A stretch of DNA of 64,000 bases, taken from IMG/VR virus record IMGVR_UViG_3300048837_000975, positions 61,691 to 125,690 of that record; one strand, given 5' to 3'. The position numbers and the translations under genes are program-made. Positions within the stretch are counted from its first letter, which is position 1; the number at the start of each line of letters is the position of its first letter. The notes beneath the pieces were generated by a model. That model was not told where the DNA came from. It ran no database searches and saw only the letters and a list, made by a program, of their open reading frames with translations. The DNA comes from a virus. Positions 2,043 through 61,945 of the stretch are shown here, one piece after another.

Positions 2043-2674
2043 ATGGGCTAATCGAAAAACTGGTTGCCGAGCTTGGTGCGCTGGACCTGGACGCGCGTGT
2101 TGAGGCGCTGAACAAGATTCGTGAGGCGCTTCACGATGTGAGCCCGTTCAAGGAGGAACCGGTCGACTTCGTTCGATGGGTTAAGTCCGATACAGTTTCC
2201 GCGAACGCGTGGAATCCAAATCACGTCGCTCCGCCTGAGATGAAGCTGTTGGAGCTGTCGATTGTCGCTGATGGGTACACTCAACCAGTGGTAGGGTACG
2301 CCATTGAATCCGGCTACGAGGTTGTTGACGGCTTTCACAGAAATCTAGTGGCCAAAACTTCACCTCAAGTACGCGAACGAGTGAAGGGTTACCTTCCGAT
2401 AGTCCGGATCAAATCCGACCGAGAAGATAAGGGAGATCGGATGGCGGCCACAATACGCCATAACAGGGCTCGCGGAAAACATGAGGTAATGGCCATGTCA
2501 ACCATAGTAGCCGACCTAATCAAGCGCAACTGGTCAGAAAGTCGTGTTGCTACAGAGCTCGGAATGTCCGCTGATGAGGTTTTACGCTTGCGTCAGGTTA
2601 CAGGGCTAGCAGAACTGTTCGCGGATCGCGAGTTCTCAGAGGCTTGGGAGATCGTTGAGGACACTCCGGAATGA
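2039..2674 (+). CDS. ParB-like nuclease-domain protein (IbrB-like), 211 aa
   Basis: The ATG at 2039 overlaps the IbrA-like stop, and is preferred to an in-frame start about 100 bases upstream inside that gene. The middle holds a ParB/sulfiredoxin-fold pattern: 'TQPVVG', then 'EVVDGFHR', and 'ATIRHNRARG' resembling the ParB ENxxR-type box. The C-terminal third looks helix-turn-helix-like ('SESRVATELGMSADEVLRL'). IbrB-type proteins occur next to IbrA. Binding target unknown. It overlaps the following GIY-YIG gene by 4 bases. Confidence 0.85.
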   Translation: MNGLIEKLVAELGALDLDARVEALNKIREALHDVSPFKEEPVDFVRWVKSDTVSANAWNPNHVAPPEMKLLELSIVADGYTQPVVGYAIESGYEVVDGFHRNLVAKTSPQVRERVKGYLPIVRIKSDREDKGDRMAATIRHNRARGKHEVMAMSTIVADLIKRNWSESRVATELGMSADEVLRLRQVTGLAELFADREFSEAWEIVEDTPE

Positions 2675-3948
2675 AGCTTGAGCAGATGCTAGAAACGGAC
2701 GGCTGGAGCAAAAGTTCGCTGTACTCCGACGAATCAGAATACCCATGGTATGTGTATAGGCATATATGCGAGCCAACTGGCAAATGCTACGTTGGTTATT
2801 CGGACAAGCCGATCAGGCGGTGGTTAGAGCACGTCAGGAACTCAAGAAATCAAAACAGCGATTGCTATGATACGAAGCTAAGTCGAGCGATCAGAAAATA
2901 TGGAGAGACACAGTGGTCGCACGAGATAGTAGCAAAGACCGACTGCCAAGAGTCGGCGGCTACACTTGAGCTGAAGTACGTTTCCGTGTTCAATTCGTAC
3001 GAAGATGGTTACAACTCCACGCTGGGCGGAGACGGAGCATCTCAAAAAGAGCGACTTACTGAAGAGTTCATCCTCGATAGGATCCGTGACCACAAGAAGC
3101 TCACGGGAAAGTTTCCGACCACGTCGTCGCTTTCGGTTGCCGGCGGATACGAAGGAGACACCTGGAACGGATACAGCCTAGCACTGTCGCAGGGATTTAG
3201 AGGGTTGCCCGGCGGATCCTCTCTGGCAAAGCTTCTGGCAAAGCACTTTGATCATGCAACAAATATGACCAAAGTGGACCTGACCGAAGAGTTCATTCTT
3301 GAGAGAGCTACCGAGCACTTTAGAATCTTTTCAAGGTGGCCCCGCGGGTCTGATGGAGATGTTATAGGAGGACATCCCGGCGATACCTGGTCAGGGTATC
3401 ATAGTGCTTTGTCGAAAGGTCACAGAGGTCTTCGCGGAGGAACGTCACTGGGAGAATTCCTACTATCAAAGACAGGTTACAGGAACCACAAAAACAAGCA
3501 GAAGCTTACCGAGTCGTTCATTGCAGAAGCTGCAACAAAGTACAAGGATAAAAACGGACGATGGCCAACATCAAAATCTGGTGATGTAGAATTTGGTCAT
3601 CCAGGAGATACCTGGATTGGTTACGACGGTGCGCTTGAGAAGGGTCTCCGCGGCCTGCCAGGCGGAAGCTCACTAGCTAGACTGTTAGACGAGCAAACTG
3701 ATTATGTGAACCACAAGACGAAGCCGGATCTAACTGAAGAATTTATCCTGAACAGGGCAGCAGAATACCTGTCAGAAACAGGAAAGTTACCAACCAAGCA
3801 TTCCGGTAGCGTAAGAAACGGTCACCCTGGCGATACGTGGTGCGGATACGCAGCATCCCTGGAAAGGGGAACAAGAGGTCTTCCTGGCAAATCAACCTTG
3901 CCGAAGCTCCTCAAACCCCTGAAGCTCGTCAAGCCCACTCAAACTTGA
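2671..3948 (+). CDS. GIY-YIG endonuclease with four tandem C-terminal modules, 425 aa
   Basis: Residues about 25-120 form a GIY-YIG nuclease domain: 'YVYRH', 'GKCYVGYSD', the Arg of 'RRWLEH', and 'YGETQWSHEIV'. After it come four copies of a module of about 73 residues, each opening with 'LTE.FI' and containing 'GHPGDTW.GY' (first copy 'GYEGDTW'), then 'G.RGLPGGSSL'. The modules are probably DNA-recognition units, as in homing-type nucleases (inference). A homologue with three modules is encoded on the other strand at 46888-47961. It may act as a free-standing homing endonuclease or help degrade host or competitor DNA. Confidence 0.85.
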   Translation: MKLEQMLETDGWSKSSLYSDESEYPWYVYRHICEPTGKCYVGYSDKPIRRWLEHVRNSRNQNSDCYDTKLSRAIRKYGETQWSHEIVAKTDCQESAATLELKYVSVFNSYEDGYNSTLGGDGASQKERLTEEFILDRIRDHKKLTGKFPTTSSLSVAGGYEGDTWNGYSLALSQGFRGLPGGSSLAKLLAKHFDHATNMTKVDLTEEFILERATEHFRIFSRWPRGSDGDVIGGHPGDTWSGYHSALSKGHRGLRGGTSLGEFLLSKTGYRNHKNKQKLTESFIAEAATKYKDKNGRWPTSKSGDVEFGHPGDTWIGYDGALEKGLRGLPGGSSLARLLDEQTDYVNHKTKPDLTEEFILNRAAEYLSETGKLPTKHSGSVRNGHPGDTWCGYAASLERGTRGLPGKSTLPKLLKPLKLVKPTQT

Positions 3949-4529: not shown

Positions 4530-5201
4530 ATGAGCTACTATCCTACGAATGGTTTGGGCGCGTCCGCGTCTGTTTCGGCCTCTGCCTCGTTGAGCGTTGG
4601 TGCGAAGAAGCCGGCTCCGAAGAAGCCTGCGCCCAAGAAACCGGCTCCGAAGAAGCCTGGTCTCATCACTTCGTTCGCCGCGAAGATAGCTGCGGCTACG
4701 AAATCTGCCGCTGATGCTAAGAAAAAGGCACAGATTGAGGCCGCCCGCAAAGCAGCCTCAGCTGCCGCATCAAAGCCTGGCACACCGAAGGCTGCTTCTG
4801 TTCCCGCTGCGCGGCCAGCGCTGCTGAGCGCTGCTGGTCACGCTATCAAGGCTGCGTCTACGCCAGTTGCTCGCCCAGCGCTCCTGAGCGAGTCCGGCGC
4901 GAAGGCGAACGCCGATGTGATGAATCCGGAAAAGCAGAGCATTTCGACCGACGGAAAGTGCTACGCTGGTAAGGTTCTTTTTGAGAACCGTGGAATCAGC
5001 TTCTGTATGCCTCCCGCCGCGTACGCGCAGATGCAGCTCGAAAAGGCTGGCCCCGCCGTCGTCTCGGTGAAGCCCGAGGATGCCATTAATTCTGATCAGA
5101 AGACGGTGGAGGTGGAGCCAAAGAGTAACCTTCCTCTGAAGATTGCTGTCGGTGGGTTGATTGCTGCCGGAGCCATCACGCTGATTATTGTGGCAAGCTA
5201 A
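4530..5201 (+). CDS. Lys/Ala/Pro-rich protein with C-terminal membrane anchor, 223 aa
   Basis: The N-terminus has a 'NGLG' motif (residues 7-10) and an Ala/Ser run, followed by a 'KKPAPKKPAPKK' repeat. The middle is an Ala-rich helix with 'IEAARKAAS', a relative of the module repeated in the next gene. Two near-identical short segments around 'ARPALLS' follow, then a domain with two Cys, then a hydrophobic C-terminal segment of about 20 residues. The Lys/Pro stretch could contact DNA. Probably a virion membrane protein (inference). Confidence 0.75.
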   Translation: MSYYPTNGLGASASVSASASLSVGAKKPAPKKPAPKKPAPKKPGLITSFAAKIAAATKSAADAKKKAQIEAARKAASAAASKPGTPKAASVPAARPALLSAAGHAIKAASTPVARPALLSESGAKANADVMNPEKQSISTDGKCYAGKVLFENRGISFCMPPAAYAQMQLEKAGPAVVSVKPEDAINSDQKTVEVEPKSNLPLKIAVGGLIAAGAITLIIVAS

Positions 5202-17251: not shown

Positions 17252-17377
17252 CCTACGTGAAGCTGAGTGATTCCTGGTTTTGTGTTCTCGCCAATCCAAA
17301 AATGGCGAATGACCATGCCAGGTACTCTCTAAAGAGAGACGGCGGGCTCCGTGTCGTGCGGAGTTGTGTATTCAGAC
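17252..17377 (+). promoter_or_regulatory. Structured 5' leader with at least three hairpins
   Basis: Three inverted repeats lie in order: TCGCCA/TGGCGA around 17288-17309, CTCT/AGAG around 17325-17338, and CTCCG/CGGAG around 17347-17363. CCTGG and CCAGG flank the first one. The start codon follows the last hairpin, and no good ribosome site is visible. The leader could control translation or stability of this message. Confidence 0.4.
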
Positions 17378-19639
17378 ATGGCTGCTAAGCGAACAACCAA
17401 AGGTAAGGCGTTCAAGATCACCGAGAAGCAGGTGAAGGGCTACGGTTATGCGAAGCCTAATCCTGTTCCGGTTACCGCCATTGTCGCTGTGAACGGCAAA
17501 GGCGCGTACAAGAAGGCGCAGTCCGCTAAGTCTGTCATGTCCGGTCGCTCCAAGTCCGAAAGGCTCGGACGCGCACGGAAGTTGACTGCAAACACCCTAA
17601 AGGGTGAGAATGCAAAAGGTTCGGCCTCTTACAAGAGCAACAAGGAGATTGGTATGCGGAAAACGGTAGCGCGCGCTCGAGTAAGGGCCGCGCTGAAAAA
17701 GAACCCCAAGTCGCCCACTGCGGCGCAGCTGAAAGCTCGTCAAGCTTTCGCCAAGATGGTCAAGGCGAAGTCTGGTAAGCTCAAGAAGAACCCGGGCAAA
17801 ACTTCTGCGAAGAAAGCTCTGGCTGCTGCGCGCAAAGAATGGGCATCAAAGATGACCGCTAACAAGCGGCGTCGCGGTGGAAAGGCCAAGAAAAAGTGGG
17901 CCACTCCGCCAAGTTGGGCTCGCGGTCCTGCTGGCACCCAGGTGATGGGCGCCATTGGTCCTACCGGAACCAAGGTGATGGATGCTGCGAGGACTACGCG
18001 CATGGACGCCGTTGGCGCCCGTACGATGGTCTCCCCGGTCTACAGTGAAAGTTCTGCGCCCACTCGGCGCGCCGGTCGCAAGACCGCTTCTGTTCGTGTT
18101 GTGAAGCCTACTAAGAAAGCAAGAAAGGGATCTCGTAAAATGGCTCGAAAAGCGGCCAGCAAGCGCGCCAAGAAGGCCGCTTCGGTCAAGTCGGTTAAGG
18201 TTGTTCGTCGTCGTCGGAAGCGCGTTGCCAAGAAGGCGGCGAAGAGCGTCAAGTCTCGACGCACGCGCAAGGCTGCGAAGTCTCGCAAGCCCCGTCGGCG
18301 AGTGAAGCGCACCGCGAAGAAGGCAAAGCGCACCAAGAAGGCGAGCAAGCGTCGCACCAAGAAGAGCCGCAAGGCTGCCGCGAAGAAGGCTCCCCGCAAG
18401 GCTCGCAAGACGCGGAAGGCTCGCAAGAGCCGCAAGACGCGACGTATGCGCAAGAATGGTCTGACTCGTCGTCAGCGCGCGGCTCGCAAGGCCGCTGCCA
18501 CTCGCGCGGAGAAGAAGGCGCGACGTAGCGCTGCTGCGAAGAAGGCTGCTCGCAAGCGTTCACGCAAGTCTTCTGCGAAGAAATCGGTTCGTCGGGTGCG
18601 TCGTCGTCGGTCCGCTAAGCGGACGACCAAGCGATCCGCGAAGCGTGCTGCTCCGAAGAAGAAGGCTCGCAAGGCTCGCAAGTCGCGTCGCTCGTACAAG
18701 CGCAATGGCGTCGGTGCGAAGGTCAAGAGCTTCTTCAAGCGGAATGGCGTGATGGAGATCGTGAAGTTGGCGGGTCTCGTGACCGCTGGCGTCGTGACTC
18801 ACCGCGCTTTGACCGCTGGTCTGAACGCTCTCGTTCTCAACCCGCTGCTCAACCCCGCTCCGACGGTTGCTGAGCCTGCTGCGACCGGATTCGTTCCGGA
18901 AGCTGCGAAGCCGATCGTCAAGCTGCTCGCTTCGGCTGCTGTTGCCGCGGCTGGTACGCTCGCCGTCAAGGCTGTCTCGAAGGATGCTCAGGTCGTCAAC
19001 TCGGTTGCTGCCGGTATGATTGCCTCGGTTCTCCATCAGGCGGTTGTGACTGCGGTGGATATGGTCTCGCCCAAGGTTGCTGGCTACCTCGCTGGCGTCG
19101 AAGACGGTACCGCGGCTCGCCTCTCGGCGATGTACGGTTACGGCGCTGCGTCGCTGCAACCGAGCTATGCTCCGATCTCGGGCATGGGCGAGTACTTCGA
19201 GGGTACGGCGGGTCTCGGCGAGTACTTCGAGGGTACGGCGGGTCTCGGCGAGTACTTCGATAGCACCTCCGGTCTCGGCTCGTATGGCGGCAACCCCGAC
19301 ATCTTCGAGGCGGCGGCGGGCTACGGAATGCTCGGCGACAACTCGGACGGCTACACGAACAACATCAACCCCAATGACGACCTCGATCGCCAGCTGACGA
19401 TCGCGGAAGCGGCGGCTGGTGTTGGCGCGGCGCCCTATGAGGCTGCTGCTGGCATCGCGGAAGCGGCGGCGGGCTTCGGCTCGATCCAGTCGGTTCCCTC
19501 GGCGGACACCTGGGTTCCGGGTTCTGCTAACGGTCAGCTGTGGGCGGGTACGCGAGCTGTGAGCAATCCGCAGTCGGCAACCGCGATGGTTCCGGCCGGC
19601 GTGCTCGAGAGCGGCGGCGGCGCTGGCATCTTCGGCTGA
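17378..19639 (+). CDS. Large histone-like, Lys/Arg/Ala-rich virion protein, 753 aa
   Basis: ATG 17378 is preferred to a GTG 27 bases upstream inside a hairpin. Residues about 1-460 are extremely basic, with runs of 'KKA', 'RKAR' and 'KSRK' like linker histone tails, which fits DNA condensation. A hydrophobic, Ala-rich middle (about 470-620) could be membrane-associated. The C-terminal part is acidic, with near-perfect 'GLGEYFEGTA' repeats and repeated 'EAAAG'. DNA-binding tail plus membrane part would tether the genome to an inner membrane (inference). Low-complexity composition makes homology searches unreliable. Confidence 0.8.
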   Translation: MAAKRTTKGKAFKITEKQVKGYGYAKPNPVPVTAIVAVNGKGAYKKAQSAKSVMSGRSKSERLGRARKLTANTLKGENAKGSASYKSNKEIGMRKTVARARVRAALKKNPKSPTAAQLKARQAFAKMVKAKSGKLKKNPGKTSAKKALAAARKEWASKMTANKRRRGGKAKKKWATPPSWARGPAGTQVMGAIGPTGTKVMDAARTTRMDAVGARTMVSPVYSESSAPTRRAGRKTASVRVVKPTKKARKGSRKMARKAASKRAKKAASVKSVKVVRRRRKRVAKKAAKSVKSRRTRKAAKSRKPRRRVKRTAKKAKRTKKASKRRTKKSRKAAAKKAPRKARKTRKARKSRKTRRMRKNGLTRRQRAARKAAATRAEKKARRSAAAKKAARKRSRKSSAKKSVRRVRRRRSAKRTTKRSAKRAAPKKKARKARKSRRSYKRNGVGAKVKSFFKRNGVMEIVKLAGLVTAGVVTHRALTAGLNALVLNPLLNPAPTVAEPAATGFVPEAAKPIVKLLASAAVAAAGTLAVKAVSKDAQVVNSVAAGMIASVLHQAVVTAVDMVSPKVAGYLAGVEDGTAARLSAMYGYGAASLQPSYAPISGMGEYFEGTAGLGEYFEGTAGLGEYFDSTSGLGSYGGNPDIFEAAAGYGMLGDNSDGYTNNINPNDDLDRQLTIAEAAAGVGAAPYEAAAGIAEAAAGFGSIQSVPSADTWVPGSANGQLWAGTRAVSNPQSATAMVPAGVLESGGGAGIFG

Positions 19640-19813: not shown

Positions 19814-20563
19814 ATGGCAAAAATTGTTTCTATTCGCGAGCGCGTTCATCAGCCCTTCTATGACCACCTGATCCGTACGGCTGGTATGGCGCAGGGCTCG
19901 GTCCAGGACACGAACGCTCTGTTCACCTCGAACGGCGCGCGCACCGAGGCGACCACGAACTTGATCAACGGCGCGACGCTGCCGTCTGACCAGTCGCACG
20001 TGACCCTCGTGCTTCGCGTTTTCACGTGGTTCCGTAACCCCGTTCTCCGCGTTGCGGGTGCGGATGCTGGTGAAGTGGCTGGCAACGGCGATTATGACGA
20101 TCTGGACGAGTTCCAGACCGGCGGGATCGCGGTCGGCAACGCTCCGGGTTCCACGAAGGACGTGTACCGTCTGGCGTGGCAGTCGAGCGAGCAGCTTCAC
20201 TGGACGTTCGGTGCGGGTCTGAAGCCCAGCATTGACAATATGCCTACTTGGTACTTCCCGACGGGTGGCGGCCTCCTGTCGGACCTCGCCGGCAGCACGG
20301 ACCTCGTGCACCTCAACAACGGTATGCCCTCGCATGAGAGCATTCTCCGCCTCGGCCGCGCGGTGCTCATCCCCCCGCGTCAGAACATTCTCTGCACTGC
20401 CAAGATTTTCAGCCTTCCCGACGCCGGGAACGCGCTGGCGTTCGGCACGGTGCAGGGCAGCCGCAACATGCTGTCGCTCCGCGACAACCTGAACGCGGTC
20501 GACCTCGTGCAGAAGTGCGTGAGCTTCTGTATCGATGGTCTGTTCAGCCGCGACGTTCAGTAA
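19814..20563 (+). CDS. Candidate small major capsid protein, beta-rich, 249 aa
   Basis: Monocistronic, with a strong promoter, long-leader hairpin and strong terminator, as expected for a very abundant protein. The sequence is beta-rich with few charges clustered, begins 'MAKIVSIRERVHQPFYDHL', and ends 'DGLFSRDVQ'. It has no HK97-type features and is too short for that fold. A jelly-roll capsid subunit is my inference; a structure prediction would decide. It is the target of all five guides in the adjacent mini-array. The start codon is not preceded by a close ribosome site; AGGAAAG lies about 17 bases upstream. Confidence 0.7.
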   Translation: MAKIVSIRERVHQPFYDHLIRTAGMAQGSVQDTNALFTSNGARTEATTNLINGATLPSDQSHVTLVLRVFTWFRNPVLRVAGADAGEVAGNGDYDDLDEFQTGGIAVGNAPGSTKDVYRLAWQSSEQLHWTFGAGLKPSIDNMPTWYFPTGGGLLSDLAGSTDLVHLNNGMPSHESILRLGRAVLIPPRQNILCTAKIFSLPDAGNALAFGTVQGSRNMLSLRDNLNAVDLVQKCVSFCIDGLFSRDVQ

Positions 20564-20595
20564 CAGCGGATTCTGTCGAAATCGACAGGGCGAAG

Positions 20596-20624
20596 GGGCT
20601 CCGGGGTTGACTCGGGGCCCTTTT
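20596..20624 (+). terminator. Intrinsic terminator after the capsid-like gene
   Basis: GGGCTCCG (20596-20603) pairs with CGGGGCCC (20613-20620) and TTTT follows. A second small perfect hairpin (CTGTCGA/TCGACAG) lies just after the stop codon at 20573-20588. The promoter of the mini-array is embedded in this terminator. Confidence 0.7.
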
Positions 20625-20634
20625 CGTCTACAAT
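20607..20634 (+). promoter_or_regulatory. Promoter of the CRISPR mini-array, embedded in the terminator
   Basis: TTGACT (20607-20612) and TACAAT (20629-20634) with 16 bp between, the best match to a sigma70 consensus near the CasPhi gene. Transcription should begin near 20641, right at the first mini-repeat at 20642. The -35 is in the loop of the terminator hairpin. Confidence 0.6.
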
Positions 20635-20641
20635 GTAGAGC

Positions 20642-20863
20642 ATTGCGCTCTGAGGAGCGACATACAGAAGCTGACGCACCGTCGCAAATTGCGCTCTGAG
20701 GAGCGACATGCTGGGCTTCAGACCTGCGGCACCTATCATTCCACAAATTGCGCTCTGAGGAGCGACTAGAAGGGCTGATGAACGCGCTCGCGAATAGAAT
20801 TGCGCTCTGAGGAGCGACAGCCGCGACGTTCAGTAACAGCGGATTTGCGCTCTGAGGAGCGAC
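20642..20863 (+). CRISPR. Five-unit CRISPR-like mini-array with shortened repeats, guides match the capsid-like gene
   Basis: The 20-nt repeat 'attgcgctctgaggagcgac' occurs at 20642, 20688, 20747, 20799 and 20844 (the last with one change). It equals the 3' end of the 36-nt repeat of the large array and forms CGCTC-TGAG-GAGCG, the 5-bp stem and 4-nt loop typical of CasPhi crRNAs. Spacers are 26, 39, 32 and 25 nt, and a fifth guide runs on from 20864. Each guide matches 19814-20563 or its stop region (see findings). The array is on the same strand as, and just upstream of, the nuclease gene, so both may share a transcript. Confidence 0.85.
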
Positions 20864-20951
20864 ACTTGGTACTTCCCTACACACTGTAATCTGGAGTGGT
20901 GCAAAAAAAGTTCTTGCTCCGCTTCGCATGGGCTGCTACAACGCTGGAGCG

Positions 20952-23255
20952 ATGAAGAAAACGACAAATCTGAAGATTGAAAATGGCGTATCGCCGCTTG
21001 CGCAGATGACTCGCAAGCATTTTCCGGGAAAAAGGTTTCCAGCTAGCGTCTTGAAGCCAGCTGGCAGGAAGCTCAAGGATCACGGTGAGCAAGCTGCGAT
21101 CGAATTTCTGCAGGCCAACATTGATGTTCCTTACGGGAACTTTAAGGCGCCGGCAAAGTGTAATGTTGTCGCTACTAGTCGCCCGTATAGCGAGTGGCCG
21201 CTTTACAAGTTCTCATCTGAGCTTCAGAAAGCAGTCTTTGCACTCTCAAAGGATAGGCTGATGGAGATTGAACCATCAAAGCAATCCGACGCAGAGAACG
21301 AGAAGTTCCTGTCAGCGATCGGAGTCAGCGCGGATCCGTCAATTAACGTGACGTTCGTTAGCGCGTGCATTTCAAAGGCCGTGCATACGTACCTTGGAAT
21401 GGAGAAGAAGGCTGAGAACAAGTACCAGAAGAAGTTGTCAAGGTGTCGCTCAGAGAGCGAGCTAAGTAGCGTCACACCAGAAAACGTATACAATGAAGAC
21501 GGAACGCTTTCTGACGGGTGGCGGCCCGGTTTCAATGCTAACCTATACGGAAACTCAAATAGCAAGCTGAGTCTATTCGGATCCGTTAGGTCGCACAACA
21601 AGGTGGAGCTGCCTGTGTGGCTTTCTGAATACCGAGAGTGGGCAAAGAATCGCTCAAAGGATTCAAAGATCAATGAGTACAGCGCAAGCGTTGATCGACT
21701 GTCGATTCCGGAGGGCCAGCCCGGTCACGTTCCGCTTTGGCAAAGAGACTCGTCTAAGCGAACTAAGCCGGGCGGTGGAGAGATCAAAGAAGGGGTTCGT
21801 CGTCATCGATGGTACTCGAACCGAAACAACGCGAACCGAAGGAACAAGGTTGACCAGGCAACCAGGTTGGCCGCATCGGCTATGGAGATGGTTCTTGCAA
21901 TCGCATTCTTCGGAGAGGACTGGGTTCTCTTTGACATTCGCGGACTACTTAGGAACGCTCGCTACCGCAAGCTTGTGAACAAGAATACGACATATGGCGA
22001 TCTGATGGAGTTGTTTACGGCAGATCCTGTTCTTGATACAAAGCGAGGAATCATCACCGCATCGTATAAGGACACGACTCTCAAGATCGTTCAGCAGACA
22101 ATAGTCGGCGAAAAGAAGTCCAAATCCAAGATTCTGGAAGAGGTCCAGAAGAACGGGCCGGTTGCTGTTGTATCGATCGATCTCGGTGTAAATGAGCCCG
22201 TGTCGTACCGTGTGTCGAGGGTTGATGTAGCTGGAGGGAACGCCATCGTTGCCGAGCTTGCCGCTGAAGGATTCATGAGCAACGAACTAAAGAAAGAGAT
22301 TTCTAGTTATCGGGAAAAGTCGGACGAGCTTAACGGCGATCTTCGTGAGAAGGCAGTCCTTTCCCTCTCGGACGAAATGCAGGCAGAGATTCGCCGAGTC
22401 GACGCAACGAATGCCAGTGACTCGAAGAACAGAATCTGCGAAATGCTCAGCCTGGATCCGGAAAGCGTTGACTGGTCAAAGATGACCACGCAAACCAGGT
22501 TCATTTTCAACAAGCACGTTGAGAACGGCGGGGATCCTAACGTCCTTCTGTTCACTCCGACCGAGGACAAAAAGAACAAAGGTAAGAAGAGCAAGAATAA
22601 GAAGGGCGAGTACGGAGACAGGGTTCCGCACTCCGACAGTGGGATCGCTCGGAACATTGCCAGAGAGAAGCTCAGTATGGAGACTTGCGAGGCTCTCAAC
22701 AAAGCAAAACGGGAACTGCAACAAGAAGATCCTCGGTATGGTAAGCTTTCCAAGCGAAAGCAGGAGTTCGCTCGACGCGTAGTGAACGGAGTGGTTGTGC
22801 GCGCACAGGAAGTCACTGGGTGTGATAACGTTGTGCTGGTCGTTGAGAAGCTCAACGTATCAAACAAGATGTTTAGCGGAAGCGGAAAACGAGCTCCAGG
22901 ATGGGACAACTTCTTCGTTCACAAGAAAGAGAACCGCTGGTTTATTCAGGCGCTACACAAGGCGTTCACCGACAAGGCTGCGCACAAGGGCATTCCTGTA
23001 ATCGAAATTAAACCGAGCTATACAAGTCAGACTTGCCCAGCGTGCGAGCATTGTGACAAGGACAACCGAGACGGGGTTCACTTCTGCTGCACCAGGTGCG
23101 GGTTCACCGGTCACGCGGACCTCAACGTAGCGTGCTTCAACATTGAGAAAGTTGCTCTTACTGGAGAAGCTATGAGCGGACCCGGCAGCGCAACTGCGCA
23201 CAAAAAGACTCGCAAACCAAAGAAGGCTATGGTAGAGTCAGATAAAGCCGCGTAA
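20952..23255 (+). CDS. cas12j: CasPhi (Cas12j) RNA-guided DNA nuclease, 767 aa
   Basis: Single-effector type V nuclease of the phage-borne CasPhi family. Family hallmarks are visible: N-terminal 'KHFPGKRF', 'RGLLRNARYRKL' before the RuvC core, and 'GSGKRAPGWDNFF..KKENRWF' near the end. The RuvC catalytic acids are all present: Asp in 'SIDLGVNEP' (about D410), Glu in 'VVEKLNV' (about E632) and Asp in 'HADLNVA' (about D723). A CxxC...CxxC zinc ribbon lies between about 690 and 715. Length fits the family (700-800 aa). CasPhi matures its own crRNA with the RuvC site and cuts DNA next to a T-rich PAM. ATG 20952 has TGGAG 5-6 bases upstream and is preferred to the ATG 24 bases earlier. No cas1, cas2 or cas4 is nearby, as usual for this family. 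Confidence 0.95.
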   Translation: MKKTTNLKIENGVSPLAQMTRKHFPGKRFPASVLKPAGRKLKDHGEQAAIEFLQANIDVPYGNFKAPAKCNVVATSRPYSEWPLYKFSSELQKAVFALSKDRLMEIEPSKQSDAENEKFLSAIGVSADPSINVTFVSACISKAVHTYLGMEKKAENKYQKKLSRCRSESELSSVTPENVYNEDGTLSDGWRPGFNANLYGNSNSKLSLFGSVRSHNKVELPVWLSEYREWAKNRSKDSKINEYSASVDRLSIPEGQPGHVPLWQRDSSKRTKPGGGEIKEGVRRHRWYSNRNNANRRNKVDQATRLAASAMEMVLAIAFFGEDWVLFDIRGLLRNARYRKLVNKNTTYGDLMELFTADPVLDTKRGIITASYKDTTLKIVQQTIVGEKKSKSKILEEVQKNGPVAVVSIDLGVNEPVSYRVSRVDVAGGNAIVAELAAEGFMSNELKKEISSYREKSDELNGDLREKAVLSLSDEMQAEIRRVDATNASDSKNRICEMLSLDPESVDWSKMTTQTRFIFNKHVENGGDPNVLLFTPTEDKKNKGKKSKNKKGEYGDRVPHSDSGIARNIAREKLSMETCEALNKAKRELQQEDPRYGKLSKRKQEFARRVVNGVVVRAQEVTGCDNVVLVVEKLNVSNKMFSGSGKRAPGWDNFFVHKKENRWFIQALHKAFTDKAAHKGIPVIEIKPSYTSQTCPACEHCDKDNRDGVHFCCTRCGFTGHADLNVACFNIEKVALTGEAMSGPGSATAHKKTRKPKKAMVESDKAA

Positions 23256-23443
23256 TGATCTAAAACGCCGAGATCCTCTGAACCGGAGGCGCTCGCAAAC
23301 AGAAATTGACAACAAGTTCGACAGGATGCCATCTGAGCATAGAATGGCACCAGGAGGCACGAGCGCGAGATCGCTCCCGGATCGGAAAGGCTCTCGCAAA
23401 CCGTTCGGTAACCGCGCGAATCTACAGGGTCTCACGGAGACCC
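23256..23443 (+). promoter_or_regulatory. Leader of the large CRISPR array
   Basis: 188 bases between the nuclease stop and the first repeat. A TTGACA lies at 23306-23311 but no good -10 follows at 16-18 bp; TAGAAT at 23340-23345 is an alternative -10. A perfect hairpin, GGGTCTC-ACG-GAGACCC (23427-23443), touches the first repeat. Repeat degeneration at the far end (short last spacer, mutated seventh repeat) agrees with the leader being on this side. Confidence 0.5.
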
Positions 23444-23972
23444 ATAGAAACCCCTACAAATTGCGCTCTGAGGAGCGACGACCGCCAAAGCAGCCAAGGT
23501 GCCAGCGCTACCGACATAGAAACCCCTACAAATTGCGCTCTGAGGAGCGACTGACCACGGGATCGCTCGCCGTCGTGAACGGAATGATCATAGAAACCCC
23601 TACAAATTGCGCTCTGAGGAGCGACCCAGTGTTCGTGACCTCTACCGCCGTCTACTTTTGGCATAGAAACCCCTACAAATTGCGCTCTGAGGAGCGACTT
23701 GGTGCCAGCCTCACCACGACCGCCGCATCAGGCGCGATAGAAACCCCTACAAATTGCGCTCTGAGGAGCGACTGAGTCCACCCAATCACTATCGAGCATA
23801 TGCCACTCCTATAGAAACCCCTACAAATTGCGCTCTGAGGAGCGACCGCGACGAACGCAAAGAGCTTGTGGCTGCGGCCCGCCATAGAAACCCCTACATA
23901 TTGCGCTCTGAGGAGCGACTTAGCTTCGCCGAGGATCTAGAAACCCCTACAAATTGCGCTCTGAGGAGCGAC
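23444..23972 (+). CRISPR. CasPhi CRISPR array, eight repeats and seven spacers
   Basis: 36-nt repeats start at 23444, 23516, 23590, 23663, 23737, 23811, 23884 and 23938 (the last lacks its first base). The repeat begins 'atagaaacccctacaa' and ends with the mini-array unit, with stem CGCTC/GAGCG. Spacers are 36, 38, 37, 38, 38, 37 and 18 nt; the last is unusually short. Repeat 7 has one substitution. By eye I found no match of these spacers in this window, unlike the mini-array. Their targets are probably other phages or plasmids (inference). Confidence 0.97.
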
Positions 23973-24018
23973 ACTCAAACGGAACGAACGTCAGGGGAGA
24001 CGCCACAAAACGTAAAGC

Positions 24019-25039: not shown

Positions 25040-25870
25040 ATGAGCGATTTCGCGAGGCAATTTAGCCAAGCGTTCGCGCAGACCAACCCGCACATCGGTG
25101 GCAATCGTTCTGCCAGTGTGCGGGTTGGACAACCGGCGCCAATTCCCGAGTCCGTAAGGGGTCGGGGGTGTAGCGACGCTGCGCGCACTGTTGTGGCTGG
25201 CGGAGCAATGTCACAGTTGCTTCTGCACCCTACGTTCGTTCCGTTTGAGCTTACGTTCCGTAAGCTACCCGACGACGGCGTTTATACCGCTAACAGAATA
25301 AACCAATACGCATTTGAGCTTGGATCCTTCACGGTTCCCACTTCGATGTCATTGGCTGTCGCGGAGTACTCGTTTCGACCTTACCGCATCTCTGGGGCTG
25401 CTCCTGGAGAAGCTGTTCCGCTCGAGACAGGTAGATTGTCGTTGGAGCTTGCGTACGACCTGAACATTGACCAGTACCGTAAGGGAAACATCAAGACACA
25501 GGTTGTCCCGCGGCTACCTTCGCCTGCACAGAACGCGTTTGCTGGTAATCCTTCTGGCGGATCTGTGTTTCAGCAGTCGGTTGGCGGGCTGGCTGGATCG
25601 GCGTCGCTGGCGAGCTTCAACTCTGACGTTACATCCGGGCTCACCAACTATGGTGACGCTCTCATCATTCAGGGAACAAAGACTCAGCAGGGTCCTGAGA
25701 AGTTCCCGTTCACCTATTACGTTAGGTCCAACCAGGCTGTTCAGATGCGAGTGATCGTGTTTGGGCAGATCACGATTCCTCTTGCGTTCTTCGAGGGCGT
25801 GTTGAGCGGGTATCTGATGCCGCAGAACACTCTTGAGTCGATGCTTGACGGCGTGAGTCCCTGTCAGTGA
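25040..25870 (+). CDS. Candidate minor capsid or vertex protein, beta-rich, 276 aa
   Basis: AGGAG precedes ATG 25040, 8 bases after the previous stop. A disordered N-terminal 55 residues precede a beta-rich body ('FVPFELTFRKL', 'LSLELAYDL', 'MRVIVFGQITIPLAFF'). No membrane segment, no known motif. Position in a two-gene operon with the previous protein suggests a structural partner. Confidence 0.65.
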   Translation: MSDFARQFSQAFAQTNPHIGGNRSASVRVGQPAPIPESVRGRGCSDAARTVVAGGAMSQLLLHPTFVPFELTFRKLPDDGVYTANRINQYAFELGSFTVPTSMSLAVAEYSFRPYRISGAAPGEAVPLETGRLSLELAYDLNIDQYRKGNIKTQVVPRLPSPAQNAFAGNPSGGSVFQQSVGGLAGSASLASFNSDVTSGLTNYGDALIIQGTKTQQGPEKFPFTYYVRSNQAVQMRVIVFGQITIPLAFFEGVLSGYLMPQNTLESMLDGVSPCQ

Positions 25871-42290: not shown

Positions 42291-42475
42291 CTTACGAATA
42301 CAAGTGTTCAGCGTGCGGTCACGAATGGGAAGCGGAACAGAAGATTTCGGAAGAGCCGCTCAAGTCGTGCCCAAAGTGCGGCCTTACCGAGGCGAAGCGC
42401 CAGATCAACGCTGGAGGCGGGTTCAGGCTTGCTGAGGGCGGAGTTGGTTGGGCAAAGAACCTGTACAGCAAGTGA
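42287..42475 (+). CDS. FmdB-like zinc-ribbon protein, 62 aa
   Basis: Starts 'MTYEYKCSACGHEW', with a second pair 'CPKCG' 22 residues later: a single zinc ribbon of the FmdB/putative-regulatory type, common in phages and bacteria. Role unknown. Confidence 0.85.
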   Translation: MTYEYKCSACGHEWEAEQKISEEPLKSCPKCGLTEAKRQINAGGGFRLAEGGVGWAKNLYSK

Positions 42476-42479
42476 AGTT

Positions 42480-43610
42480 ATGAGAACAACTCGGCGGAAC
42501 AGTGCTGTATGTTGCGCCGATTGCGGCGTTTTGTTCGGTTGTTTGCCAATGACAAGACTAACCATCACAGACCTTGAGGACGTGCGTAAAGGACACGGAT
42601 CGCCTTCTAATACCGTCCCCTTGAACACGATCTTGCTTGGAGATTGCCTAAATCTACTTCGGACCATGCCACCGAGCTGTGTCGACCTGATCGTGAGTTC
42701 GCCGCCGTACAACCTAGGAAAGGAGTACGAGGCTCGCTGTGCCCTTGATGTCTATCTGGAGGAACAGACCGAGGTTCTGCGCGAGTGCGTCCGCGTGCTC
42801 AAGCCGAGCGGATCAATCTTCTGGCAGGTCGGGGCGTTTTCAGATGATGGAGCATTGATTCCACTCGACATCCGCTTCTTTCCAATACTTGAAAGACTCG
42901 GACTCATTCCCAAAAACCGAATTGTTTGGGCTCGACAACACGGGCTTCATGCGACGAAAAAGTTTTCTTGTCGGTACGAGACCATCCTGTGGTTTACGAA
43001 GACTCCTGAATATGTATTCCATTTAGACCCGATTCGGGTGCCCCAGAAGTATCAGAACAAAAAGCATTTTCGGGGTGACCGGAAGGGTGAGTTTTCATGC
43101 AATCCCGACGGCAAGAATCCAGGCGATATCTGGATGTTTCGCAACGTTAAGCACAATCACGAAGAACAAACGATTCATCCGTGTCAGTTCCCGGAAGACC
43201 TCGTCGCGCGCATTTTGCTCGCTACCACTGACGAGGGCAGTGTGGTTTTGGATCCATACATGGGTACAGGCACCGTCGCAGTCGTGGCGCGCGACCATGG
43301 TCGACGCTTCGTGGGCGCCGAACTTGATCCCAAGTACCACGCGGTTGCGGTGCGGCGGCTTACGGGAACTCCTGACGCTAACGGGATGTTCCCGAACCTG
43401 AAGACTCTGCGCGACTATTGCGAGAGAACTGGAGCGTCGACTTCTAGGTTCCGCTTCGATGTGCAAGTTGGCGCTGTCGCCAGCGAGCGCTCAAAGGCGA
43501 AGATTTTCTCCGAAGAGCATCATCTTGAGGAACTCGAACGGCGACTCGGTTACGAGGAGGGCGCGTTTGCCGCGAAGCGTCGGGGCGCGACGGTCCTGGA
43601 AAGCAAGTGA
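42480..43610 (+). CDS. DNA methyltransferase, N4-cytosine/N6-adenine type, 376 aa
   Basis: Catalytic motif IV 'SSPPYNLG' comes before the SAM motif 'LDPYMGTGTVAVVA', the beta-class order. It should methylate an exocyclic amino group in a specific DNA site, probably to protect phage DNA. The start could instead be ATG 42549; the extra N-terminal part has three Cys ('CCADCG'). One of three methyltransferases in 4 kb. Confidence 0.88.
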   Translation: MRTTRRNSAVCCADCGVLFGCLPMTRLTITDLEDVRKGHGSPSNTVPLNTILLGDCLNLLRTMPPSCVDLIVSSPPYNLGKEYEARCALDVYLEEQTEVLRECVRVLKPSGSIFWQVGAFSDDGALIPLDIRFFPILERLGLIPKNRIVWARQHGLHATKKFSCRYETILWFTKTPEYVFHLDPIRVPQKYQNKKHFRGDRKGEFSCNPDGKNPGDIWMFRNVKHNHEEQTIHPCQFPEDLVARILLATTDEGSVVLDPYMGTGTVAVVARDHGRRFVGAELDPKYHAVAVRRLTGTPDANGMFPNLKTLRDYCERTGASTSRFRFDVQVGAVASERSKAKIFSEEHHLEELERRLGYEEGAFAAKRRGATVLESK

Positions 43611-52666: not shown

Positions 52667-54347
52667 CACGCAGAAGGCGACGGTTCTTTCGCTGAAGCTT
52701 CTTCGCATTGAGAAAAAGCTCACGCTTGGCGTCATCAGGGGACTCGTGTTCCGGAGCCACGAGTCTCGCTTCGACCTGCGCGCGCAGCCGCGGACCCACG
52801 AGAGGCGGAACAGCTTTCGCGAAAGACTTCTGGTCTAGTTCAGACTGTCGCCACGCCGAAACAACGTCCATAGCAGCCAGCGCGTAATCGTCAGACAGAG
52901 ACTCTAGGCTTTCGCGAACGGAAGCGTCCTCGGATATGCTTGGGCAGTCCAGAAGGCAGCCCAGCATCCTGAAAGAGAAGTTCTCTTCGCTCGGGGCGAG
53001 CTTTGCGGCTTCTCCAGGATCGTTCGGCGACGCTGCGCGAACGAAAGCGCGGAACTTCTTGTCGCTGGCTCCGGCCAGCATCACGGATGCTCGGTACGCG
53101 CACTGATCGGCTATGGCTCGAACAACGGGATCGTCCTCTCCGTCTACGAGCTGCCGAATGCGCTTCAGGTGAGCGGACTTGGTCTCCGCGTCCTGCGACA
53201 GCTGAGCAGCGCTCGCTTCCTGGTTGATCAGGTGCTCGATGATTCCGACGGCCTTAGCGGCGACCTCCCTGATAGCCTCAGGGCCGCTCGATCGAGCGTA
53301 CGCGTCTGGATCCGTTCCGTCAGGAAGAACAGCTACCTTCGCCAGCAGCCCGCCCTCTTTGCACGGTCCGTGCGACTTGATCACGGCCTCTCGACCAGCA
53401 CGGTCGCCGTCGAACATGAGAACGACAGCCTTCGTGAACTTGGATACGAGCCTGGCCTGTTCGGGTGTGAAAGCCGTTCCAAGCGGAGCTACGGCGCTCG
53501 TGATCCCGCGCGCGTGCAATCCGACAACGTCGAAGTTTCCCTCGACCACGATGCATCCCTCGTGCCTAAGGGCACCCTTGGCCTGGTGCAGTCCGAAGAC
53601 AACGTCTCGCTTCTTGTATATCTCGGACTCTGGAGAGTTAACGTACTTCGGAAGCTTCTCCTGTTGCGTCTCTCCGGGCGGTGGAGGAAGCTCTCGACCG
53701 CTGAAGCCGATCACTCGCCCGCGAAGATCGATCACAGGGAACATAAGACGATTCCGGAACTTATCGTAGTATCCGCCGGAGCGCTTTGAAGCTACCAGAC
53801 CGATCTTCTCAGCAGCCTCGACCAACTCTTTCGGTAGGGCGTCTGCCAGCGATGACCATCCCGGCGGCGCGTACCCAAGTCGGAAGCTCAAGACGTGCTC
53901 GGAGCACGGGTCTACTTCTCGCTTAAGAAGCTCGCTCTCGGCCAGGCTCCGGTGCTCGTTCGTCGTTAGGTTTTTCTGAAAGAACTTCGCCGCGAACTCA
54001 GCGGCCTCATACAGCGGATCTGTATCTACTGAAGTGGACTCTTTCCCAGAACCGTCAGTTTCAACTACGGTGATACCAGACCTATCAGCGAGACTTCGCA
54101 CGGCTTCCTGGAACGAAAGCCCATGGTGCTCCTGCATGAATGCGATGTTGTCTCCGCTGGCTCCGCACCCGTAACAGCGATAGAACGACCGCTCATCGCT
54201 TACGTAAAAGCTCGGAGTCTTCTCCTTGTGAAAAGGGCAGAGACCTGACCACGACCTGCCCTTGCGCACAAGGCGCACGCTCTCCCCGATCACCTGCACT
54301 ATGCTGACGGTGTTCCGGACGCGTTCGATTGTCTCTTCAGCAATCAT
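52641..54347 (-). CDS. DnaG-type DNA primase, 568 aa
   Basis: CHC2 zinc finger at about residues 37-62 ('CPFHKEKTPSF', 'CYGCGASGD'), the catalytic core with 'FPVIDLRGRVIGFSGR', and a Toprim domain ('GCIVVEGNFDVVGLH', 'VVLMFDGDRAG'). It makes RNA primers for replication. The C-terminal helicase-binding part is degenerate, as usual. Start overlaps the previous gene by 11 bases. This points to the phage running its own replication fork. Confidence 0.95.
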   Translation of the reverse strand: MIAEETIERVRNTVSIVQVIGESVRLVRKGRSWSGLCPFHKEKTPSFYVSDERSFYRCYGCGASGDNIAFMQEHHGLSFQEAVRSLADRSGITVVETDGSGKESTSVDTDPLYEAAEFAAKFFQKNLTTNEHRSLAESELLKREVDPCSEHVLSFRLGYAPPGWSSLADALPKELVEAAEKIGLVASKRSGGYYDKFRNRLMFPVIDLRGRVIGFSGRELPPPPGETQQEKLPKYVNSPESEIYKKRDVVFGLHQAKGALRHEGCIVVEGNFDVVGLHARGITSAVAPLGTAFTPEQARLVSKFTKAVVLMFDGDRAGREAVIKSHGPCKEGGLLAKVAVLPDGTDPDAYARSSGPEAIREVAAKAVGIIEHLINQEASAAQLSQDAETKSAHLKRIRQLVDGEDDPVVRAIADQCAYRASVMLAGASDKKFRAFVRAASPNDPGEAAKLAPSEENFSFRMLGCLLDCPSISEDASVRESLESLSDDYALAAMDVVSAWRQSELDQKSFAKAVPPLVGPRLRAQVEARLVAPEHESPDDAKRELFLNAKKLQRKNRRLLRVTPQDSQR

Positions 54348-60613: not shown

Positions 60614-61945
60614 CTAATTAATGACCACGGTATGAATGTGGGATGGCACGCTCTTTGCGTCGAATCCGCCGATCAGGCCGGCCACAAACTCAACGTCAGA
60701 GATCTCGTCAGGCCACGGCGTGTAACCGTCAGTCAGAATCACGATGATCCGGTGCGCCGGAAGGTTCTCGCGAGCGGCCTTTACGCCGACCCGCATATCC
60801 GTTCCGCCGCCGCCGACCAGCTTCACGTCTAGAGCGCTTGTGACGCGCTGAACCTTGCTCGCCGCCGAGTCGCAGCATATGACCGGAAGCTCGTGCTGGC
60901 CTAGCGCGTTTATGATCCCCTGAACCTCGGCCAGAACACCCTTGAGCATATCGTCGGACATAGACCCCGACGTATCCACAATCGCGCACACCTCCGGCTG
61001 CGGACGAACTAGGCGTGGCATGATAACGCCGGTCGGGTTACCGCGACGGCTAGGTCTCTGCCAGGTGTAGTCAGAGGCGCCGGAAGCCATCACAACGGCC
61101 TGCGATAGCTTCGCCCGAAGCTCCTGCTCCCACGGTACCTTAGGAGGAGCCAATCGATCGTCAGCCCACCGTTTAGCGAAAGCCGGCATATCCCCGCGCA
61201 TCTTACTAGCCGACTTTACCGCGTTCGCCAGGCTGTCGCGAAGCATATCGTTCTCGGTGTCAGTCAGCCCGCGTGGCGCGTCTTTCTCGCCGGCCTTATC
61301 TCCTGCCCCGTCGGTCTCTGAACCATCTTCCCAGGGCCGCTTCTGGCCATGCGCGCCGGATCCGCAATCCCAGGACTCGCCAGGCTTCCCGTGTCCGCCC
61401 TGACCTTGACCTTGTGGGCAGTTTTCGGAGCCCTGGCCTTGGCCTTGGCCCTTGCTTTCCTGGCCTTTACCGCCGTTTCCTTGCTGCTTCTGACCCTGAC
61501 CCTGTTGTTTCTTACCCTGCTGCTTTAGCAGGTCATAGTACTGCTCAAAAGGCAGGTGGTTCGGAAGCTTGTAGTTCTCCGGAAAGGCTCCTTCGGGCGG
61601 CAGATTGGCGCCGGCCGCCTTCATTCCGCCGTTGATCTCAAGATCCGCGGCGATATTCGATTGCTTTGCGTCGTACGCGTCACCCTCGCGAGCGGCAACG
61701 TACTTTGCGCGACCAGCGTGACCAAGCGCCCAGTGCCAGATCTCATGAACCAGAACCCAGGCCGCCTGTTCTAGAGTCCATGTGCTACCAATCAGCTTCG
61801 GATCGAGATACAGCGTGCCCCTATCATCGATCGCGAAGGTTCCGATACCGGGCTTCTCGATCATGGGCAGCGCGAACAGCGTCGTCGCCATATATGGGCA
61901 TTTGTGCCCGGCGATTGACCTAAGGTCTGCCAGGATTCGTGACAT
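60614..61945 (-). CDS. Metallopeptidase/VWA-domain protein (DUF2201-like), 443 aa
   Basis: N-terminal zinc-peptidase motif HExxH in 'VLVHEIWHWALGH' (about residues 64-76), then a Gly/Gln-rich linker, then a VWA-like domain with the MIDAS motif 'DTSGSMS' and 'GGGTDMR'. Such proteins pair with MoxR-type AAA+ ATPases, and one lies just upstream here. The pair probably remodels or activates a protein complex. GGGAG precedes ATG 61945. Confidence 0.88.
   Translation of the reverse strand: MSRILADLRSIAGHKCPYMATTLFALPMIEKPGIGTFAIDDRGTLYLDPKLIGSTWTLEQAAWVLVHEIWHWALGHAGRAKYVAAREGDAYDAKQSNIAADLEINGGMKAAGANLPPEGAFPENYKLPNHLPFEQYYDLLKQQGKKQQGQGQKQQGNGGKGQESKGQGQGQGSENCPQGQGQGGHGKPGESWDCGSGAHGQKRPWEDGSETDGAGDKAGEKDAPRGLTDTENDMLRDSLANAVKSASKMRGDMPAFAKRWADDRLAPPKVPWEQELRAKLSQAVVMASGASDYTWQRPSRRGNPTGVIMPRLVRPQPEVCAIVDTSGSMSDDMLKGVLAEVQGIINALGQHELPVICCDSAASKVQRVTSALDVKLVGGGGTDMRVGVKAARENLPAHRIIVILTDGYTPWPDEISDVEFVAGLIGGFDAKSVPSHIHTVVIN

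Follow-up and report, generated by a model that had tools for sequence, protein, structure and literature searches.

At the left edge of a CasPhi island inserted in this phage genome, we find a 47-base element that appears to be shared between the end of one transcript and the start of another, with a candidate promoter for a small CRISPR array overlapping the terminator of a capsid-like gene. Every guide of that array matches the capsid-like gene, and the reading that we develop here, which in our judgement is evenly poised between right and wrong, is that the element drives guides against the same gene in the phage's relatives. The virus record comprises 125,690 bases; the window analysed is the stretch of 64,000 nucleotides that runs from base 61,691 to base 125,690, and positions are those of the window unless given as genome positions.

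A CasPhi island between conserved phage genes

The capsid-like gene (19814–20563, + strand) is an open reading frame for a protein of 249 aa, which has 25 relatives at 33–72% identity and no sequence match in Pfam, PHROG or PDB. A structure model of this protein (pLDDT 68.9, pTM 0.71) gave jelly-roll-type fold matches that were weak and non-significant; these come from a second model, the first (pLDDT 34) not being usable, and we use the name 'capsid' tentatively. More than 20 relatives keep their counterparts of gene 17351, the capsid-like gene, gene 24051 and gene 25040 in this order, and ten relatives searched whole lack CasPhi. Because the flanking order is conserved and these ten genomes are without CasPhi, we conclude from the comparison that the CasPhi module is an insertion between two conserved neighbour genes. 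The gene upstream of the capsid-like gene (17351–19639), conserved in relatives, encodes a 762-aa protein with long Lys/Arg/Ala-rich stretches and a histone-like composition. The same phage encodes a GIY-YIG domain protein (2671–3948) and a homing-endonuclease-like protein (L040:14307–15431).

The effector gene (20928–23255, + strand) encodes CasPhi (Cas12j), 775 aa from the first ATG, with a likely start at ATG 20952 after GGAG. By phmmer it matches CasPhi-3 (7odf, 8e-133) and CasPhi-2 (7lys, 4e-124), covering 23–768. The RuvC residues D418, E640 and D731 are present, together with two CxxC motifs (CPAC and CTRC) and a TNB domain. The protein thus has the marks of a type V-J effector, namely homology over most of its length and a size of 700–800 aa with a C-terminal RuvC and zinc-ribbon region, and beside it lies an array whose 36-nt repeats each end in a short hairpin.

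This full array (23444–24000, 3' end approximate, + strand) holds 8 repeats of 36 nt (ATAGAAACCCCTACAAATTGCGCTCTGAGGAGCGAC), and its leader contains a promoter-like TCGACA-16-TAGAAT (23318–23345, + strand). The published CasPhi-2 repeat has a 3' end like that of the repeat found here (ATTGC....GAC; PMC11048056). The last guide, s8 (23973–24009, + strand, 3' end undefined), matches 25232–25249 on the minus strand through guide bases 2–19; these 18 bases, flanked by TAA, lie in gene 25040–25870, on the other side of the island and two genes downstream. The other full-array guides gave nothing convincing in the phage's own genome, with longest exact runs of 10–12 bases. The seventh spacer (23920–23937) is about 17–18 nt long, half of the usual 36–38. 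Searches for further CasPhi loci confirmed none in viral contigs (by protein query or motif alignment) or in genome contigs and gave nothing beyond TnpB-like matches in named phages, while a 19-mer of the repeat hit no viral contig and one genome contig, about chance level.

All guides of a mini-array match the neighbouring gene

Between the capsid-like gene and casPhi lies a mini-array of five 20-nt repeats (20642–20863, + strand), at 20642–20661, 20688–20707, 20747–20766, 20799–20818 and 20844–20863. The repeat equals the last 20 bases, at the 3' end, of the 36-nt repeat in the full array and contains the hairpin CGCTC-TGAG-GAGCG; the last copy begins with T, and the spacing is irregular (45–59).

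All five guides, which are encoded on the + strand, match the adjacent capsid-like gene, and all do so from guide base 1, with exact runs of 11, 17, 33, 27 and 14 nt. Guide m1 (20662–20687) matches 20515–20532 on the minus strand, 11 nt exactly and then 17/18 (flank TCG); m2 (20708–20746) matches 20213–20232, also on the minus strand, 17 nt exactly and then 19/20 (flank TCA); m3 (20767–20799, its last base shared with repeat 4) matches 19828–19860 on the minus strand perfectly over 33 nt (flank TCA); m4 (20819–20843) matches 20546–20572 on the plus strand perfectly over 27 nt (flank TTC); and m5 (20864–20899, 3' end undefined) matches 20246–20262 on the plus strand, 14 nt exactly and then 16/17 (flank CCT). 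The m4 target covers the stop codon of the gene, and the match extends 2 nt into repeat 5. Random 30-mers from the genome reach 11 nt at a frequency of 6.6e-4 (~0.07%) and 14 nt at 5e-6 (0.0005%). Guide m1 also has a 13-base exact match at window position 5008 (minus strand), which exceeds the 11 bases matched in the capsid-like gene and has a flank other than TBN. Rfam and tRNA searches found nothing.

Guides m1, m2 and m5 each differ from their own target by one mismatch, in every case a silent change at a third codon position, as if these guides had been drawn from a slightly different allele of the capsid-like gene. Their matches run for about 17–20 nt and then stop, so a used guide length of about 17–20 would fit; Cas12j needs a guide-target match of about that length, with ~17 nt for strong activation (PMC11600238). 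We also considered that the tails of m1, m2 and m5 came from a divergent capsid gene and rejected this for m2 and m5, since the residues that they would encode conflict with positions that the relatives conserve.

The PAM of CasPhi-2 is TBN (PMC9943656), and four of the five flanks fit it, against 17% of positions, although this candidate PAM was inferred from five sites and after the fact. In Cas12j3 a T-rich PAM is read by Q123 and Q197 (PMC8298400). The protein described here differs from Cas12j3 in that both glutamines are replaced (T142, S210), a change that may point to an altered PAM and makes the PAM of this CasPhi a guess; the inferred flanks are mostly TCN or TTC.

Taken with the effector next door, the matches make it likely that CasPhi, led by these guides, acts on the capsid-like gene. 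Whose copy is meant is a harder question, and for relatives as the intended target we see about as much reason to believe as to doubt. No sequenced relative matches all the guides: m3 fits one relative (L001) at 23/24, m1 and m2 fit no relative above chance, and a 17-mer of m2 found two unrelated contigs only. Because collections may omit very near relatives, the real targets have perhaps not been seen.

The main rival to the targeting of relatives is that the phage regulates itself, the mini-array guides letting CasPhi repress or thin out its own capsid-like gene, for example to hold back late expression; in a variant of this idea, short or mismatched guides (m1, m5) bind without cutting. The element does lie directly behind the gene to be regulated, and among the phage's own genome and its relatives the best overall match of every guide is the phage's own capsid-like gene, even though m1 has its longer exact run elsewhere. 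Moreover, m1 and m5 are exact over only 11 and 14 nt, when a hybrid of >12 nt is needed for Cas12j cutting (PMC8298400) and ~17 nt for strong Cas12j activation (PMC11600238). However, the RuvC residues are intact, and m3 and m4, with matches of 33 and 27 nt, should cut rather than repress; the guides are also spread across the whole gene and not its promoter. We consider self-regulation unlikely. The targeting of relatives carries a difficulty of its own. Guides m3 and m4 have perfect matches in the carrier phage, next to acceptable PAMs, and m2 has a nearly perfect one; the carrier's own genome should be cut by an active nuclease unless it is shielded by timing, DNA modification or a compartment. 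Late expression, modification or compartment could possibly give such protection; the same phage encodes a methyltransferase (42429–43610).

A probable promoter overlapping the terminator of the capsid-like gene

The stop codon of the capsid-like gene (20561–20563) is followed by a 14-pair hairpin that ends in TTTT (20592–20624, + strand). Read directly from the sequence, its arms and loop are GAAGGGGCTCCGGG-GTTGA-CTCGGGGCCCTTTT, with the loop at 20606–20610 and the tail TTTTCGTCT. The segment 20588–20632 has a folding energy of -30.6 kcal/mol, whereas its shuffled versions average -16.1 (z -5.5; 0 of 200 shuffles were as good), and the terminator scores 18.7–21.6, a positive value, by the d'Aubenton-Carafa formula. 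A G+C-rich hairpin followed by a T-run, the form of an intrinsic terminator, is thus found 3' of the capsid-like gene. Of 18 relatives, one (L026) has a clear comparable terminator behind the gene and another (L018) a borderline one; given this rarity, the terminator may have come with the CasPhi island rather than being an old regulator of the capsid-like gene.

The initial annotation had read a promoter, TTGACT-16-TACAAT, within the hairpin and T-run, with its -35 in the hairpin loop and its predicted start at the first mini-repeat. Direct reading of the sequence bears out both hexamers and the spacer of 16, with TTGACT at 20607–20612 and TACAAT at 20629–20634 (+ strand). The overlap with the terminator also holds, given the hairpin's z score, the positive terminator score and a -35 inside the hairpin, but the nesting is less complete than first described: TTGA occupies the loop (20607–20610) while CT falls in the 3' arm, and TACAAT lies 4 nt downstream of the T-run, so that the hairpin interior proper holds the -35 only. 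The start fits as well, since the position of the -10 implies a +1 at 20641–20642 and mini-repeat 1 begins at 20642. The -10 sits within a dyad, CTACAATGTAG (20628–20638), a possible operator.

To judge how readily such a site arises, we scanned for at least 10/12 hexamer matches at a spacing of 16–18, for which chance predicts 0.027 sites per kb on each strand. Across all 125,690 bases of the genome there are 5 + strand sites of this quality, and two of these precede the two CRISPR arrays (20607, 23318). The chance that a site would put its +1 no more than 5 nt from a repeat is ~3e-4, a figure stated post hoc. Independent support comes from the decamer GGGGTTGACT (20603–20612), of which the -35 is part: it occurs exactly twice in the genome, here and before a solitary mini-repeat elsewhere, each time with TTGACT 35 nt upstream of the mini-repeat.

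The hexamers could instead be fortuitous, in which case the mini-array and casPhi would depend entirely on transcripts that read through from the capsid-like gene. Both hexamers depart from consensus at one position, the choice of sigma factor is conjectural, and the free-standing nuclease genes of T4 are often without promoters of their own (PMC2988022). Set against this are the 10/12 match, the spacing of 16, the exact placement and the duplication of GGGGTTGACT at the solitary unit, and we think coincidence quite improbable. The mini-array promoter is, in our estimation, likely real. With -35 and -10 hexamers spaced within the 16–18 range and a start that is a predicted position, a sigma-70-type promoter probably overlaps the terminator and is placed to begin RNA at the first mini-repeat.

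A solitary unit shows the same promoter geometry without a terminator

The solitary mini-repeat lies outside the window, at genome positions 53602–53621 (ATTGCGCTCCGAGGAGCGAC), with one loop base changed. It is preceded by GGGGTTGACT, and TTGACT starts exactly 35 bases before it, as in the mini-array; its -10, TATCCA, is weak. The unit is placed in the promoter region between divergent genes, where there is no terminator. Its guide, TAGGGCACCATATGTCAATG, has no match in the phage's own genome, in relatives or in viral contigs, and searches with this guide and with the s8 19-mer gave no matches. For the lipoprotein beside the unit, a search of 13 relatives returned one distant match and was not informative.

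Because the -35 motif recurs at an equal offset before the solitary unit, where there is no terminator, guide synthesis probably does not need a promoter nested in a terminator, and the nesting is probably a matter of saving space. This bears on a further proposal, that the overlap is a regulatory device in which the polymerase ending the capsid-like gene clashes with the one starting the guides and capsid transcription sets guide levels. The -35 does lie in the hairpin loop, and a terminator of such quality is rare at this place in relatives. Yet, besides the evidence of the solitary unit, such overlap is expected in compact phage genomes and nothing in the sequence shows coupling, and we hold a regulatory device to be decidedly improbable. 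Interference between reading-through and initiating polymerases is to be expected wherever a terminator and a promoter overlap in this way.

Least probable of all is that the mini-array is a decayed, functionless part of the main array, as its truncated repeats, irregular spacing (45–59) and the tails of m1, m2 and m5, which match nothing past about 20 nt, might suggest, since all five units agree in the functional part of the repeat, with one difference at a flanking base, the five guides keep one target gene, a good promoter is present, and the portion lost from the repeats is the portion that processing would remove.

The mini-array as a probable leader of the casPhi mRNA

We found no + strand terminator between the mini-array and casPhi, and on that ground think that the mini-array probably forms the 5' leader of the casPhi mRNA. 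Cas12a destabilises mRNA that carries its repeats in the leader, and CasPhi-2 does likewise with repeats in the untranslated region (PMC9943656). By analogy with these effects, self-limitation of CasPhi through the repeats in its own mRNA would be a possible by-product.

Together, these observations suggest the following sequence of events. An intrinsic-type terminator closes the capsid-like gene, and the overlapping promoter would start RNA at mini-repeat 1. Because transcription would begin at the mini-repeat itself, guide 1 would need no 5' trimming. The same RNA would continue into casPhi with the mini-array as its 5' leader, and CasPhi would cut the guides out of the leader of its own mRNA. 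The guides would then direct CasPhi to the counterpart of the capsid-like gene in close relatives without the island, which it would cut, and these competitors would be either excluded or converted to the island-bearing allele, as by the free-standing homing endonucleases of T4. The overlap of promoter and terminator would be compaction, with at most modest interference; the link between the capsid-like gene and the guides that is visible in the sequence is complementarity.

Discussion

Like the CasPhi/Cas12j (type V-J) loci of huge phages, the locus described here has a single compact RuvC effector beside an array of 36-nt repeats, with a repeat 3' end like that of CasPhi-2. Unlike them, it carries a further array upstream, a mini-array with truncated repeats whose guides point to the phage's own neighbouring gene, and the record, at 125.7 kb, is smaller than the huge phages from which CasPhi was described. 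Spacers of huge phages match structural genes of other phages (PMC7162821).

Virus mini-arrays target adjacent genes of close kin (PMC6858448), and the mini-CRISPR arrays of SPV1 and SPV2 resemble ours in being small, virus-borne and equipped with spacers that match a region near the array (PMC6858448). The SPV1 and SPV2 arrays have no cas genes, host repeats and 1–2 spacers, whereas here there are five guides, truncated repeats and casPhi directly downstream. In virus mini-arrays the spacers match related viruses and not the carrier, and the carriers' own sites in SPV1 and SPV2 are mutated; here two guides, m3 and m4, match the carrier perfectly, and the best fit to a relative is the 23/24 of m3.

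The free-standing nucleases of T4 cut neighbouring genes in relatives (PMC2988022), and SegF, SegG and MobE share with our island a nuclease gene that lies between conserved genes and is absent from relatives; their target is in a neighbouring gene (PMC2988022), as that of the island's guides is predicted to be. As with a free-standing homing endonuclease, the island is inserted between genes that adjoin in relatives without it. By sequence, guides match sites in its left neighbour (five guides) and in a right neighbour (s8). It is conceivable, if unlikely, that the CasPhi island acts in nature as an RNA-guided homing element, lying between conserved phage genes and carrying guides to both sides (five left, one right). 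Such an island would cut the region in relatives lacking it, and repair would then copy it across together with the allele beside it; its promoter and the leader that holds its guides would be fitted into the end of the gene that it targets. The T4 enzymes are protein-guided, whereas this island is RNA-guided, and its own sites are not clearly resistant, those of m3 and m4 being intact in the carrier allele; homing is here a sequence-based proposal.

Synthetic switches built with Cas12a and CasPhi-2 likewise place Cas12 repeats in the untranslated region of an mRNA (PMC9943656). Those were engineered in yeast, whereas the arrangement described here is natural and lies on the effector's own presumed mRNA.

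CasPhi is widely used for genome editing. To our knowledge, its natural role in phages is poorly known. In this phage its targets can be read: every guide in one of the arrays matches the adjacent gene, and the sites point to a likely PAM. Whether a phage CasPhi serves against rivals, on the phage itself or in homing thus becomes directly testable. The truncated repeats, together with a predicted start at the repeat, suggest that 5' processing is not needed to make a guide, and guides that match the neighbouring gene suggest that the CRISPR system of this virus is directed at close relatives or at the virus itself.
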